Shown: positions 3,241-9,111 of the stretch, in pieces
Layout: every line of letters begins with the position of its first letter
Numbering within the stretch: position 1 is the first letter of the stretch
Source: an uncultured Actinomycetes bacterium
GTDB taxonomy: Bacteria > Actinomycetota > Acidimicrobiia > Acidimicrobiales > RAAP-2
NCBI GenBank assembly: GCA_903854175.1
Contig: CAINVQ010000081.1
Coordinates: 1-9,111 of the forward strand
DNA length: 9,111 nucleotides
Reading direction: 5' to 3'
The notes under the pieces: model-generated
Databases searched by the model: none
What the model saw: the letters and a program-made list of their open reading frames with translations, nothing else
What the model was told of the DNA's origin: nothing
Translations under genes and position numbers: made by a program

Positions 3241-3271
3241 GCATCTAACTAAAACTACTCAGGGGGTAGAT

Positions 3272-4414
3272 ATGAAAAGTAGTAAAGGAATGACAATGCG
3301 TGTTGTCGCAGCGTTGGCGGGAGCCACCATGCTGTCTTCACTCATTGCAGCACCAGCATTTAGTTCAGACTCTGCTTCAGTTACAGCAGCTAAGACTGAA
3401 CTTGCTAAGTACGCAGCAGTGCCTAAGTGGGTTGCACCAGGACCAAACATCAACGCTAAGGCAATCTCAAAGAACAAGACAGTAATGATCGTTCCATATC
3501 TTTTGGCGATTCCTTACAACGCTGGTTTTGCGGATGCTGTAAAGCTTGCTAACACAAAGGCCGGATTCAAGAAGACCACAGTATGGGCTTCAGACGGTTC
3601 AGTTACAAGCTGGGCTGCTGGAATCACCCAGGGTATTGCTGACAAAGTTGCTGTAATCGACCTCATCTCAGGTGTTGCTGCTGCTTACGTTGAGCCACAG
3701 ATTGCTCAAGCTCGTGCAGCTGGAATCATTGTTATTGGTTCAACCAACGATGACCCTTCAGTTCCAACACCTTCGTATCTTTCTGGTGTTGTTCCACTTG
3801 ACTACGCACTTGCAGGAAAGCTTGAAGCTGACCAGGCAACTGTAAGCACCGGTGGAAACGTGAACTGCATTATCGTGACTTCAACTCAAGTACCACCAAG
3901 CCTTTCAATGACACCAGTTGTTGAAGCTCGCGTGAGTGCACTTGGCGGAAAGTTCGTAACTATTAACGTGCAGCCAGCTGACTGGGCATCTCCAACTATT
4001 GGAATTGCTGCTCAGGTTCAGGCAAAGATTGCTGCTGACCCAACCATTAACTACGTACTTCCTAACTACGACGGTGAAGCGCCGCTTGTACTTGCAGGAA
4101 TCAACGCAGCTGGTAAGGCCGGCAAGATCGGTGTTGCTTCATTCAACGGAACACCTGACGCCATGAAGTTGGTTCAGGCTGGAACACTTGAAATGAACGT
4201 TGGAGAAGACTTGGCATGGGCTGGTTACGCAACCACTGACGCCAACCTCCGCGCACTTCTCAAGCCAAAGGCTGTTGGAGTTACATACAACGAGCACCTT
4301 CCATTCATCATCTTCACAAAGAAGAACGCAAACAATGTTGGTGTACCACCAAACTTGACTGATGGATACGGAAATGTTCACCTCAACTACCTAAAGGTAT
4401 GGGGAGTAAAATAA
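3272..4414 (+). CDS. Sugar-type ABC transporter substrate-binding protein
   Basis: A 380-residue secreted binding protein of the periplasmic-binding-protein type used with RbsA/RbsC-like importers. It captures a sugar-like ligand outside the membrane and delivers it to the permease. Seen: a Sec signal peptide (basic start to about residue 10, hydrophobic 11-30, probable cleavage after the APA at 27-29); a first lobe starting TVMIVPYLLAIPYNAGFADAV (70-90); and the second-lobe block ASFNGTPDAMKLVQAG (289-304), matching the family pattern GxDGTPxAxxxI. No lipobox Cys is present; the only Cys is 199. Start: ATG 3272 has AGGGGGTA just upstream and begins the signal peptide cleanly; an in-frame TTG at 3239 is too far upstream. 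Codon use is strongly biased (21 of 25 Lys codons are AAG), unlike the mixed use in the glycerate kinase, suggesting high expression. Ligand unknown. Confidence 0.92.
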   Translation: MKSSKGMTMRVVAALAGATMLSSLIAAPAFSSDSASVTAAKTELAKYAAVPKWVAPGPNINAKAISKNKTVMIVPYLLAIPYNAGFADAVKLANTKAGFKKTTVWASDGSVTSWAAGITQGIADKVAVIDLISGVAAAYVEPQIAQARAAGIIVIGSTNDDPSVPTPSYLSGVVPLDYALAGKLEADQATVSTGGNVNCIIVTSTQVPPSLSMTPVVEARVSALGGKFVTINVQPADWASPTIGIAAQVQAKIAADPTINYVLPNYDGEAPLVLAGINAAGKAGKIGVASFNGTPDAMKLVQAGTLEMNVGEDLAWAGYATTDANLRALLKPKAVGVTYNEHLPFIIFTKKNANNVGVPPNLTDGYGNVHLNYLKVWGVK

Positions 4415-4437
4415 TCTTCCTCTCGTAGGAAATTATT
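4410..4437 (+). promoter_or_regulatory. Hairpin on the stop codon of the binding-protein gene
   Basis: Bases 4410-4415 pair with 4432-4437 (AATAAT/ATTATT), C4416 is bulged, and TTCCT (4417-4421) pairs with AGGAA (4427-4431) around a 5-nt loop. That gives 11 bp including the TAA stop. No T run follows, so it is not a good terminator. A 3' hairpin of this kind after a binding-protein gene typically protects the upstream mRNA from 3' exonucleases (inference from other ABC operons). Confidence 0.5.
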
Positions 4438-4452
4438 AAGAATTATGAACGT

Positions 4453-4548
4453 AAGGCCGACTTGGAGTGACCAGTGCAAAACACTGTAACTATTTCTAAT
4501 GTTTCACAGCACTTCGGTGCTGTGAAGGCATTGGACCAAGTCGGCCTT
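4453..4548 (+). promoter_or_regulatory. Putative three-way-junction RNA enclosing the ATPase start site
   Basis: Three nested helices are directly visible. P1 is a perfect 13-bp helix: AAGGCCGACTTGG (4453-4465) with CCAAGTCGGCCTT (4536-4548), plus two further pairs (4450-4451/4550-4551) beyond one mismatch. P2 is CAGTG (4472-4476) with CACTG (4482-4486), loop CAAAA, and holds the GTG start codon 4474-4476. P3 is TTCACAGCAC (4503-4512) with GTGCTGTGAA (4517-4526), capped by the very stable C(UUCG)G tetraloop. The GGAG ribosome site (4464-4467) is half inside P1. Folding would therefore hide both the ribosome site and the start. The 5' arm of P1 is non-coding, so protein sequence cannot explain its complementarity. 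Function and ligand, if any, are unknown. Confidence 0.55.
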
Positions 4549-6054
4549 TCGCTTCGCTCTGGCGAAGTGCGTGCCCTTATTGGTGCGAACGGTAGTGGAA
4601 AGTCAACACTTGTAAAAGTGATTGCTGGGTATCACACACCAGACAGCGGTGAAATTGAAGTAAACGGAACAACGTGCAGCCTCAGTGACGCACGTGGTAT
4701 TCGCGAATTATGGAAAGTCTCAATTGTCCACCAAGACCTCGGACTAATTGATGGACTCAGTATCTTGGAAAATTTTCTTCTCTACGATTTCTCCTCTAGC
4801 AATGATCTAAAGATCAGCTGGGGCGAACAAAGCAAAATAGTTTCCAAGTTTTTAGAACGCTTTGGCGTCAAAATCTCTCCTTTCCGAAAGATCAATGAAT
4901 GTTCACGTGTTACGCGTGCGCTCATTGCCCTTGCTCGTGCAGTGTGGATTCTCGAAGCAGACGCTCGAATCACTGGCGAAAATGCTGCAACAACAACGGG
5001 AACGCTCATCTTGGACGAGCTCACAGCATTCCTAAGCATTGAAGAAGTACAACTACTCAAATCTGTCATTAAGGACATTGTCGCAAGCGGATTCAGTGTT
5101 CTATTTGTATCTCACGACCTCGATGAAATTTTGAGTTTCGCTGATCAAATTACTGTTCTTCGTGATGGCCGCTGCGTAGCTGACCAACCAACTCAGGGTG
5201 TCAGCAAAGATGAACTCTTCGCTCTTATCGCCGGACGTTCAGTCGATGAACTGAAAGATGCGCCTGCATCTGACTTCACAAGCCTTGATGAGAGCAAGAA
5301 GATCACTGTTGAAGGCCTTACATCAAGCGACCGAAGTCTCGGACCTATCAATTTTGACTTTGCACCTGGTGAAGTAATTGGACTCACTGGACTCGTTGGC
5401 TCTGGCTATGAGCTCGTTCCATATTCAATGTTCGGATCGGACAAGGGCTCGGTAGGCGAGCTAACAATTGAAGCAGGAAAAATTAAAATTGAACGCTTGA
5501 CCCCGCCACACGCAATTGAACTTGGAATTGCGCTCGTGCCTGGCGACAGAAGTACTCAGGGACTATGGAGCGACATGACTATCGCTGAAAACCTGACCGC
5601 AACAGACAAAGAGCAAAAACTAAATCCTTGGTTAATTTCATGGAAGCGAGTATGGGGTCGCGGAAATGAAGTTGTTAAAGAATACGCAGTGAAGGCTCCA
5701 AGTTCACACACAAAAATTGTTCAGCTCAGTGGTGGTAACGCACAACGAGTCATGATGGCAAAAGGCATTACTGCAAAGCCAACTATTTTGTTGCTTCACG
5801 AGCCGGTGCAAGGTGTTGATGTTGGCTCTAGAAGCCACATCGCAGATGTAATCCTTGATCGTGCATCTAACGGCCTTGCAGTTGTATGCGCAAGTGGTGA
5901 CCACGAATTCTTGGCGCAAGTTGCGACTCGAGTTTTGGTCTTTAGCCATGGACAGATTGTCAATGAGTTGAAGCCAAAACAGGGGCAGCAATTCGTTGGT
6001 AAAGATGAAATTGTCTACGCCTGTCAGAACAAAACAACCGTCAACGTTCAATAA
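4474..6054 (+). CDS. Sugar ABC transporter ATP-binding protein, two fused ATPase domains (RbsA type)
   Basis: A 526-residue cytoplasmic ATPase that powers the importer, with two ABC domains in one chain as in RbsA, MglA and AraG. Domain 1: Walker A GANGSGKST (37-45), Q-loop Gln87, Walker B LILDE (178-182), H-loop His214. Its signature region is not LSGGQ but ECSRVTRAL (142-150), followed by extra residues (about 160-176) before Walker B. Domain 2: the P-loop is GLVGSGYE (306-313), without the Lys-Ser/Thr; the signature LSGGN (418-422) is good; Walker B reads LLLHEP (439-444), with His for Asp. Only one of the two composite ATP sites therefore looks competent. GTG 4474 has GGAG at 4464-4467, six bases away. 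The gene begins 59 bases after the binding-protein stop and its start lies inside a strong RNA fold. The permease follows after 17 bases. Confidence 0.93.
   Translation: MQNTVTISNVSQHFGAVKALDQVGLSLRSGEVRALIGANGSGKSTLVKVIAGYHTPDSGEIEVNGTTCSLSDARGIRELWKVSIVHQDLGLIDGLSILENFLLYDFSSSNDLKISWGEQSKIVSKFLERFGVKISPFRKINECSRVTRALIALARAVWILEADARITGENAATTTGTLILDELTAFLSIEEVQLLKSVIKDIVASGFSVLFVSHDLDEILSFADQITVLRDGRCVADQPTQGVSKDELFALIAGRSVDELKDAPASDFTSLDESKKITVEGLTSSDRSLGPINFDFAPGEVIGLTGLVGSGYELVPYSMFGSDKGSVGELTIEAGKIKIERLTPPHAIELGIALVPGDRSTQGLWSDMTIAENLTATDKEQKLNPWLISWKRVWGRGNEVVKEYAVKAPSSHTKIVQLSGGNAQRVMMAKGITAKPTILLLHEPVQGVDVGSRSHIADVILDRASNGLAVVCASGDHEFLAQVATRVLVFSHGQIVNELKPKQGQQFVGKDEIVYACQNKTTVNVQ
4550..4569 (+). 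promoter_or_regulatory. Additional hairpin early in the ATPase coding region
   Basis: CTTCGC (4552-4557) pairs with GCGAAG (4562-4567) around TCTG, with a further G-U pair (4551/4568) and C-G pair (4550/4569). It directly follows the 13-bp helix and competes with only its two outermost pairs, so it could stack on or alternate with it. It encodes codons 26-32 of the ATPase, so part of the sequence is constrained by protein. Confidence 0.35.
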
Positions 6055-6071: not shown

Positions 6072-7115
6072 ATGTCCATCTCAGATACTTCTGCAACCAA
6101 TAGCAACGCAGATGTAACCAAGATCAAGAAAAGCTCTTCGTCAAAGAAGTATGCACGCTTAGACCTTCTCGAACGTGTTTGGCTGATTCTTGTTTGGGCG
6201 TTAGCAATCGCAGTTTTTGGTGCTCTTCGTCCTCACACATTCTTAACGGTCACAACATTCTCAGGAATGTTTGGACTCAACGCAACGCTCGCAATTTTGG
6301 CGCTCGGACTAATTATTGTTCTCCGAGTTGGAGAGTTTGACCTTTCAATTGCCGCAAACCTTGTTGTTTCTTCAGAAGTAATGGGAATATTGAACGCGCA
6401 GCACCATGTTTCGCTACTACTTGCAATGATTGTTGCAATTGTTGTTGGTGGAGCTATCGGGGCCTTCAACGCATTCATTATTTTGAAATTCAAAATTGAC
6501 TCATTCATTGCAACGCTTGGTATGGGATCAGTACTTTCTGGAATTGCATTATGGATTACAGGTGGAACGGCTCTTACAGGCCTTTCGCAGGCGCTTGTTA
6601 ACGGTGTTGTTATCCGTCGCCTCTTTGGTATTTCATACGAGTTCTACTACTCACTAGTTCTCATGATGGTGCTTTGGTACGTGTTCCGTTACACCGCAAT
6701 TGGTCGCCGTCTTTTGTTCGTTGGTAAGAACAGAGAAGTAGCCCGTCTTTCTGGAGTCCATGTTTCTCGAATCCGTTTCGGTGCTTTCACTGTGGCAGGA
6801 ATGATTGGCGCACTTGCTGGAATTGTTTACTCGGGAACTTCTGGAACAACGAACCCATCTGCTGGACTCGTGTACTTGCTCCCTGCATACGCAGCAGCGT
6901 TCCTAGGTGCGACATGCATTGACATTGGAGACTTCAATCCAATTGGAACTGTGGTCGCAGTGTTCTTCCTTGTTACTGGGGTTCAGGGACTCGCCATGCT
7001 TGGCGTTGGAAACTTCGTTCAGGACATCTTCTACGGTGTGGCACTGATTCTTTCAGTAGCAGGGTCTCAGTACCTCGCGCGCTCTAAGGCTCGTCGAGTC
7101 ATTTCAACTGAATAG
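6072..7115 (+). CDS. Sugar ABC transporter permease (RbsC type)
   Basis: A 347-residue integral membrane protein of the branched-chain/ribose permease family, forming the channel of the importer, presumably as a homodimer since only one permease gene is present. The hydrophilic Ser/Lys-rich N-terminus (1-32) is cytoplasmic. Hydrophobic segments lie at about 34-52, 66-86, 92-107, 113-138, 145-165, 190-207, 236-256, 265-283, 290-310 and 316-335. Seen: VGEFDLSIAA (86-95), the counterpart of the family motif GGIDLSVG, and the cytoplasmic coupling loop GRRLLFVGKNREVARLSGV (211-229) that would dock with the ATPase. The start ATG 6072 has AAAGG (6061-6065) at a 6-base distance. It is the last gene of the operon, followed by a weak hairpin and the convergent SDR gene. 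Confidence 0.93.
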   Translation: MSISDTSATNSNADVTKIKKSSSSKKYARLDLLERVWLILVWALAIAVFGALRPHTFLTVTTFSGMFGLNATLAILALGLIIVLRVGEFDLSIAANLVVSSEVMGILNAQHHVSLLLAMIVAIVVGGAIGAFNAFIILKFKIDSFIATLGMGSVLSGIALWITGGTALTGLSQALVNGVVIRRLFGISYEFYYSLVLMMVLWYVFRYTAIGRRLLFVGKNREVARLSGVHVSRIRFGAFTVAGMIGALAGIVYSGTSGTTNPSAGLVYLLPAYAAAFLGATCIDIGDFNPIGTVVAVFFLVTGVQGLAMLGVGNFVQDIFYGVALILSVAGSQYLARSKARRVISTE

Positions 7116-9099: not shown

Positions 9100-9111
9100 A
9101 TGAAAAAGCAA
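9100..9111 (+). CDS. Start of a further gene, probably secreted protein (3' end outside window)
   Basis: Only ATG AAA AAG CAA is visible before the window ends. The start is supported by AGGGGGTA (9089-9096) at good spacing. The 18 bases from 9089 match those at the binding-protein start (3261-3278) at 16 positions. A basic MKKQ beginning fits a signal peptide, so a second substrate-binding protein is a reasonable guess, but the product cannot be identified from four codons. Confidence 0.5.

Follow-up and report, generated by a model that had tools for sequence, protein, structure and literature searches.

It is an old question how many binding proteins for each translocator can be produced from one operon, and the locus studied here raises it at the boundary between a binding-protein gene and the ATPase gene behind it. 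The window, by which we mean the whole stretch of 9,111 nt that was analysed (47% G+C), carries on its forward strand a three-gene ABC importer operon in the order binding protein, ATPase and permease, which is like that of a sugar importer. The binding-protein gene (3272-4414; Peripla_BP_4, Pfam PF13407, E = 4.5e-16) is followed, after a spacer of 59 nt from its stop to the ATPase start (4415-4473), by the ATPase gene (4474-6054; ABC_tran in Pfam, 526 codons), which begins with GTG and has an in-frame TGA two codons 5' of it, and then by the permease gene (6072-7115; Pfam PF02653). Upstream of the operon are part of a gene which we take to be leuC, then leuD, a name also supported by the names of its sequence matches, and, on the opposite strand, presumably a lyase-like and a dehydrogenase-like gene. 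On the 3' side are another dehydrogenase-like gene and a glycerate kinase gene.

A preliminary description of this DNA had reported a perfect 13-bp inverted repeat around the ATPase start, and the repeat is found exactly as reported. Its 5' arm, AAGGCCGACTTGG (4453-4465, forward strand as for all parts of the element), is non-coding, while its 3' arm, CCAAGTCGGCCTT (4536-4548), covers codons 22-25 of the ATPase together with the third base of codon 21; the two are exact reverse complements, occur once in the window, and form a helix of 13 bp (P1) that is extended, beyond a U.U mismatch, by two further pairs (4450-4451/4550-4551). The three features placed inside the repeat by the same description are all present, namely the GGAG at 4464-4467, presumed from the sequence to be the ribosome-binding site and having two of its G inside P1, a hairpin that contains the GTG start at 4474 (P2, CAGUG-CAAAA-CACUG, 4472-4486, with 5 bp at 4472-4476/4482-4486), and a hairpin with a UUCG cap (P3, 4495-4535). 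The inner helix of P3 has all 10 of its 10 positions paired (4503-4512/4517-4526) and the outer helix joins 4495-4502 to 4527-4535. The minimum-energy fold is a three-way junction of P1, P2 and P3 with GGAG and GTG enclosed, and it also has a small 3-bp helix at 4466-4468/4489-4491. From P1 to P3 the element spans 39-134 nt 3' of the binding-protein stop, and the bulk of it lies within ATPase codons 1-25, hence it is not purely intergenic. In addition, a frame of 14 codons (ATG at 4445 to TAA at 4489) runs across the GTG start, and ribosomes translating it would unfold P1 and P2.

The fold of positions 4400-4600 has a predicted energy of -80.7 kcal/mol, and the comparison with dinucleotide-shuffled controls, proposed in that description, gives z = -5.88 with none of 200 shuffles as good; the 13-bp repeat of P1 appears in 0 of 200 shuffles. 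When the ATPase codons are resampled and the real leader is kept, z is -5.4, when the leader alone is shuffled it is -4.4, and when leader shuffling and synonymous resampling are combined it is -6.0, in each case with 0 of 400 controls as good. A helix of at least 13 bp between leader and coding region arises in 234 of 20,000 trials with codons resampled, in 1 of 20,000 with the leader shuffled, and in 0 of 20,000 with both. The 234 cases mean that pairing with resampled codons is commoner for the real leader than for a shuffled one; the strong test is the joint one. The joint result agrees with the earlier argument that the pairing of a non-coding arm is not accounted for by the protein. Among 86 ATPase starts screened more coarsely, that of the window is fifth by z, and no other has a perfect leader-coding helix of at least 13 bp, the next longest being 9 bp. 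Set against real DNA, the chance expectation given at that time, 0.02 per 9 kb, is too small by a factor of about ten. The window and the comparison loci, 947,681 bases in all, contain 22 perfect inverted repeats of at least 13 bp with a gap of 20-150 nt (about 0.2 per 9 kb), a count in which overlapping loci are kept and at least one repeat is counted twice.

The only close relative with DNA is the locus L144, which has the same gene order and an ATPase 82%, a binding protein 88% and a permease 89% identical to those of the window. The close-relative junctions compared as DNA are those of L144 and of the more distant L145, and the homologues P0003-P0009 (60-70%) enter as protein sequences alone; the closest genome relative of the window is G1483. 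The spacer of L144 is one base longer, its alignment to the window is gapless from 4445 through 4600, and it retains the three-way junction of P1, P2 and P3. Inside P1 the changes at 4454, 4457 and 4538 each turn a Watson-Crick pair into a G-U pair, so that the helix, for which an alignment of relatives had been suggested, is kept with 0 double compensatory changes. The 5' arm is identical at 11 of 13 positions, both changes being G-U, and the 3' arm at 12 of 13, where the one change (Gln22 to Arg) leaves the pair intact; a change at 4549 turns the U.U mismatch into a pair, and two of these four changes alter an ATPase amino acid. P2 gains pairs in L144's own fold (seven pairs, loop AAA), while in P3 the pair 4508-4521 is broken and three one-sided changes still pair. 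In the two-sequence consensus, with the broken P3 pair left out, 6 of 37 pairs are changed on one side, all 6 still pair, and none of the 37 shows a double compensatory change, which is a count over two sequences only. The minimum-energy fold of the window, when scored in L144, retains 37 of 41 pairs; three of the four losses are the extra helix 4466-4468/4489-4491, which is therefore lost there. Random placement of the same substitutions retains as many pairs in 19% of trials (P = 0.19, not significant). Given this value and the lack of double changes, the retention is clear, yet it is not a proof of covariation. L144's own fold has z = -6.5, with 0 of 300 controls as good when leader letters are shuffled and codons resampled. 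On the whole, the junction is a real structure, and one that looks selected.

Spacer positions 4445-4465 are identical in L144 at 19 of 21 sites versus 19 of 30 just upstream (Fisher p = 0.048, with boundaries chosen post hoc). Conservation is poor in the joining segment 4466-4473, where 5 of 8 sites agree, and GGAG is not kept, L144 having GGAC. As a further observation, synonymous codon conservation versus L144 is about 77% in ATPase codons 1-60 and about 50% later, and the higher 5' value may partly be an RNA constraint. In L145, whose ATPase is 54% identical and whose gene order is the same, the 5' arm of P1 is absent. The 113-nt spacer of this locus instead holds a 14-pair hairpin 41-75 nt 5' of the ATPase start, a shorter helix pairs the GTG region with codons about 25-27, and CGCTTCGGTGCG is found at the position of the UUCG hairpin as in the window. 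The preliminary description had named loss of the 4453-4465 arm at unchanged gene order as the observation that would tell against the structure; the result is divided, the arm being kept in L144 and missing in L145, which has other hairpins. A two-sequence RNA model scanned over 355 kb (63 sources) finds no third copy, the other matches being the reverse strands of the same two places.

Searches for further homologues gave distant relatives for the most part. A scan of genome contigs with the ATPase alignment A1 yields at least 546 relatives, the best 80 of which were used as the background set, none of these 80 exceeding 40% identity. Among the matches listed, searches for close ATPase relatives under strict E limits find them in 0 of 397, 0 of 166 and 0 of 245 genomes, with 3, 8 and 6 candidates scored per genome respectively. 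With the permease as query, 17 of 345 genomes match (best 50%) and, in another set, 8 of 42 (best 51%). The family of the latter set has ATPases 34-35% identical to that of the window, and in five of its loci (L111-L115) the binding-protein gene is behind the permease gene; in L128 it is in front, and the junction of L128 joined the wider junction set described below. A genome search that matched 10 of 172 genomes yielded L144 and L145, and further searches matching 36 of 99 and 1 of 223 genomes yielded no additional close relative. No relative is detected in viral contigs by protein or DNA pattern, and no match in plasmids by blastn.

The ATPase start stands out by the predicted cost of opening its surroundings rather than by its unpaired probability. 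The cost for -18 to +15 of the start is 25.5 kcal/mol in the window and 28.3 kcal/mol in L144, while that of the other starts is 6.9 (binding protein), 5.8 (permease), 11.7 (leuD) and 7.8 kcal/mol (glycerate kinase) in the window, and 9.5 and 9.0 kcal/mol in L144. The mean unpaired probability from -12 to +5 is ordinary, 0.34 versus a mean of 0.37 over 86 ATPase starts. With its start paired, its GGAG mostly paired and a high predicted opening cost, the region has the features of a masked ribosome site, and the ATPase would be expected to be poorly translated from this mRNA as long as the structure is not unfolded by a ribosome or factor. The earlier suggestion of reduced or conditional ATPase translation agrees in its first half with the enclosed start and the two costs; no sign of ligand sensing was found. 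A cost as high as that of the window or higher is reached at 7 of 25 binding-protein/ATPase junctions (the window included), at 4 of 92 other ATPase starts and at 2 of 67 permease starts.

The substitute hairpins of L145 led us to ask whether binding-protein/ATPase junctions are structured in general. The junctions compared are related by descent and were gathered by similarity to this operon; ATPase and permease starts and upstream genes were assigned by script, and the start of L149 looks wrong beside that of L148. Strong structure, defined as z at or below -4.5 and scanned in the first set from -90 to +110 of the start, is found in 16 of 25 binding-protein/ATPase junctions; the remaining ATPase starts give 6 of 92 and the permease starts 3 of 67. 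In a wider set, with binding proteins recognised by a local profile, the proportions are 18 of 34 versus 5 of 83 other ATPase starts (p = 5e-8), the remaining 16 of the 34 junctions being without strong structure at this threshold; in both comparisons the "other" starts may include unrecognised binding-protein genes. Among the 16 strong cases of the first set, 10 cover or enter the start of the ATPase gene and 6 lie in the spacer. When codons are resampled, z = -3 is reached by 5 of 25 binding-protein/ATPase junctions, versus 2 of 92 other ATPase starts and 0 of 66 permease starts (one row dropped from the 67). The five represent three operon types, those of the window, of L148/L149 and of L132. 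Where the structure is embedded, no more than 3 of 60 codon resamples give an equally good fold at 9 of the 10 loci, and this is true of none of the other 15. These results show that codon choice itself creates the structure in several operons.

Where the structures lie is best described from the binding-protein side. If the loci are lined up by their ATPase starts, the signal is divided; lined up by their binding-protein stops, they show one main block from about +20 to +120, hardly any signal ahead of it, and a lesser hump 160-180 nt 3' of the stop that comes largely from loci with spacers of 4-5 nt. In a finer scan, 23 loci have z at or below -5; the structure is 20-120 nt past the stop in 15 of them, and in the remaining 8 it is outside this range, at 9 to 272 nt. 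The position has a standard deviation of 67 nt about the stop, still wide, versus 96 nt about the ATPase start. The shorter the spacer, the deeper the structure lies in the ATPase gene (Spearman -0.71, -0.77 and -0.78 for n = 22, 19 and 18, n falling as near-duplicates are dropped: L154, the same element as L144, in every version, and L017, L019, L149 and L020 in stricter ones). When spacers are shuffled among 30 loci, the observed clustering behind the stop is never reached (0 of 5000). The place of the structures is thus tied more closely to the binding-protein stop than to the ATPase start; they are in the spacer if there is room and otherwise inside the ATPase gene. Over the 34 junctions this argues against the start codon as the reason for the location of the structure, which had been the original emphasis.

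Several individual loci may be described here. In L162 (G1423:C77), with a spacer of 2 nt, the ATPase start codon is within a 19-pair helix with a two-base bulge that pairs codons 1-7 with codons 24-31, and this locus accounts for one of the 22 perfect inverted repeats counted above in 948 kb; in L151 the start codon is beside a long helix. Long hairpins within the first 120 nt of the ATPase gene are seen in L148, L149 and L009, made from the conserved ALDxVxLxVxPG codons, and in L163, made from codons of the N-terminal part. In L017, L019, L020 and L023 (Anaerolineales, Anaerolineaceae, Leptolinea and Roseiflexus records), with spacers of 4-5 nt, a common structure is seen 160-180 nt inside the ATPase gene, with z of -8.0, -8.6, -9.2 and -4.5 respectively.

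In our best explanation, which we consider rather probable, the fold at the binding-protein/ATPase boundary acts in cis on its mRNA and serves to give much binding protein and little ATPase and permease; on the predicted folds, the cell would probably make far more binding protein than ATPase. The structure would form the 3' end of a stable binding-protein mRNA and would shield it from 3'-to-5' decay that arrives through the ATPase gene, and some transcription might also end early here. The fold, spanning the ATPase start, would in addition lower ATPase translation constitutively; we propose no sensing step. The anchoring to the stop and the hairpins in the spacers of sister operons argue for a shared task at the 3' end of the binding-protein message, either its stability or a partial loss of what is downstream. 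The fold would reach over the ATPase start because the spacer is only 59 nt, and since the structures track the binding-protein stop, the hiding of the ribosome site looks like a consequence of the short spacer. Of the three roles originally offered, a plain stoichiometry device is the best reading, and a ligand-sensing or protein-autoregulated site finds no support, with the joining segment as variable as it is. We also propose, tentatively and with rather less assurance, that, in operons with a short spacer, ratio-setting or 3'-end structures of the binding-protein gene occupy the first 10-60 codons of the ATPase gene behind it, whose codon choice, and occasionally an amino acid, would be selected for the RNA of the neighbour. 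Candidate members of such an ATPase-embedded class would be the element of the window, L132, L148/L149, L151, L162, L163 and L009.

The nearest known systems are stem-loops reported in similar operons. In Clostridia, according to Wu et al. 2022 (PMC9045158), stem-loops downstream of binding-protein genes set the ratio of binding protein to translocator, acting as internal terminators and affecting the stability of the upstream transcript, and at least 15 such stem-loops are predicted in E. coli; PMC8219983 describes SRPS operons, ABC transporters included, and in PMC4423207 a stem-loop at the 3' end of one gene is reported to set relative mRNA stability, with ABC transporter operons among the examples. 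As in this class, the binding-protein gene of the window stands first, with the translocator genes behind it and a stable structure shortly past its stop. With the stem-loops of PMC9045158 the likeness extends to the operon type, the place behind the binding-protein stop, the long stem, the poor U tract and the expected excess of binding protein. Those stem-loops, however, are described as single, intergenic and transcription-ending, while the present element is a three-way junction of spacer and ATPase codons that encloses a start and has nothing like a terminator tail. The main text of PMC9045158 does not use the words start codon, ribosome, translation or coding sequence. Unlike the stability stem-loops of PMC4423207, the element extends into the next gene, and its own role in stability is a putative one. 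The element is not a plain member of the stem-loop class, because it lies mostly in ATPase codons 1-25. We read it as the known device of a stem-loop behind a binding-protein gene, in a variant written over the start of the next gene, where the ribosome site may also be masked.

E. coli K-12 offers a comparison. At mglB-A, araF-G, xylF-G, ytfQ-R and alsB-A, a hairpin is found in the folded spacer behind the binding-protein gene in all five cases; the best z behind the stop is below -3 in three of the five, with best window centres at 0 to +20, while 1 of 5 control ATPase/permease junctions is below -3. Different from the window, these hairpins are all in the spacer (60-139 nt) and none covers the start of the ATPase gene; at the three loci where z is below -3 they are nearer the stop than in the main set. 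Leaders that mask a ribosome site are also well known in general, for example RNA thermometers and the expression platforms of riboswitches. The present element is like them in having its start region base-paired, and unlike them in that no switching partner or conserved sensor is seen and no Rfam match is found. In the titles and abstract openings of the literature searched, no such structure over an ATPase start is reported; most subscription journals are outside this coverage, which makes it weak evidence of absence.

The rival explanations differ mainly in what they make of the start codon and of the stop. That the junction exists purely to hide the ribosome site and start of the ATPase, with mRNA decay not involved, is favoured by the enclosed start and the costs of 25.5 and 28.3 kcal/mol, by the 7 of 25 comparable junctions (versus 2 of 67 permease and 4 of 92 other ATPase starts), and by the start codons of L162 and L151, in and beside a long helix respectively. 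We nevertheless regard this explanation as unlikely, for strong structures track the binding-protein stop, many are confined to the spacer or sit 50-100 nt within the ATPase gene, and the unpaired probability of the start is ordinary for ATPase genes. A weak internal transcription terminator or pause element of the Clostridia kind would share the position and the operon type, and the internal terminators reported in PMC9045158 have poor U tracts and long GC-rich stems. Such an element is improbable here: positions 4450-4560 contain no terminator-like site, 0-4 T are found in the eight bases after each of the 16 strong structures, and a 13-bp helix closing 70 nt of further structure has the wrong shape. 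An ordinary intrinsic terminator was rejected on the same stretch, where the eight bases after the P1 domain have four T, not in a run.

More doubtful still is a conditional element, whether a ligand-binding RNA, a protein-bound autoregulatory site, or control through translation of the 14-codon frame. The shape of a three-way junction would suit it, and the ATG and TAA of the frame are both present in L144, where the frame is open. The joining segment 4466-4473, however, is kept at no more than 5 of 8 sites, and the RNA model found no further copy in its 355 kb and 63 sources. Five of the 14 small-frame codons differ in L144 and all five differences are nonsynonymous, so the peptide is not conserved, and a leader peptide under selection was rejected on this ground. 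As the preliminary description had supposed, no known riboswitch is recognised: no Rfam covariance model matches at the element, and the three matches obtained up to E = 10 are all elsewhere in the window and all below the gathering score. That the fold is a coincidence, or simply follows from conserved ATPase codons (the FGAVKALD motif), is hardly credible. The UUCG hairpin is indeed largely dictated by this protein motif, its sequence recurring in the 54% relative, and codon resampling next to the real leader still yields a 13-bp helix in 234 of 20,000 trials; against this, the 5' arm does not encode protein, no such helix arises in the 20,000 trials of the joint null, and L144 retains P1. 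The ratio-setting structure at the end of the binding-protein message is thus the explanation we keep.

The placement relative to the stop, with its spill into the next gene, is the part most worth the attention of specialists. If the structures are indeed anchored to the stop and spill into the ATPase gene, the 5' codons of this gene carry regulatory RNA that gene finding and codon studies can miss, and the ratio of binding protein to translocator might be predictable from sequence in bacteria that cannot be cultured.

Two minor observations concern the rest of the window. The encoded ATPase looks one-sided between its two domains, as judged from motifs whose names (Walker A, LSGGQ) we presume to apply to these segments: the first domain has a good Walker A (GANGSGKST) and no recognisable LSGGQ signature (ECSRVTRALIALARA), the second has LSGGNAQR and a degenerate Walker A (GLVGSGYE), and similar letters are seen again in the closest homologues of alignment A1. 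At the end of the window (9100-9111) there is another ATG, preceded by AGGGGGTAATT, which resembles the leader of the binding-protein gene, AGGGGGTAGAT at 3261, and this ATG is possibly the start of another binding-protein gene.
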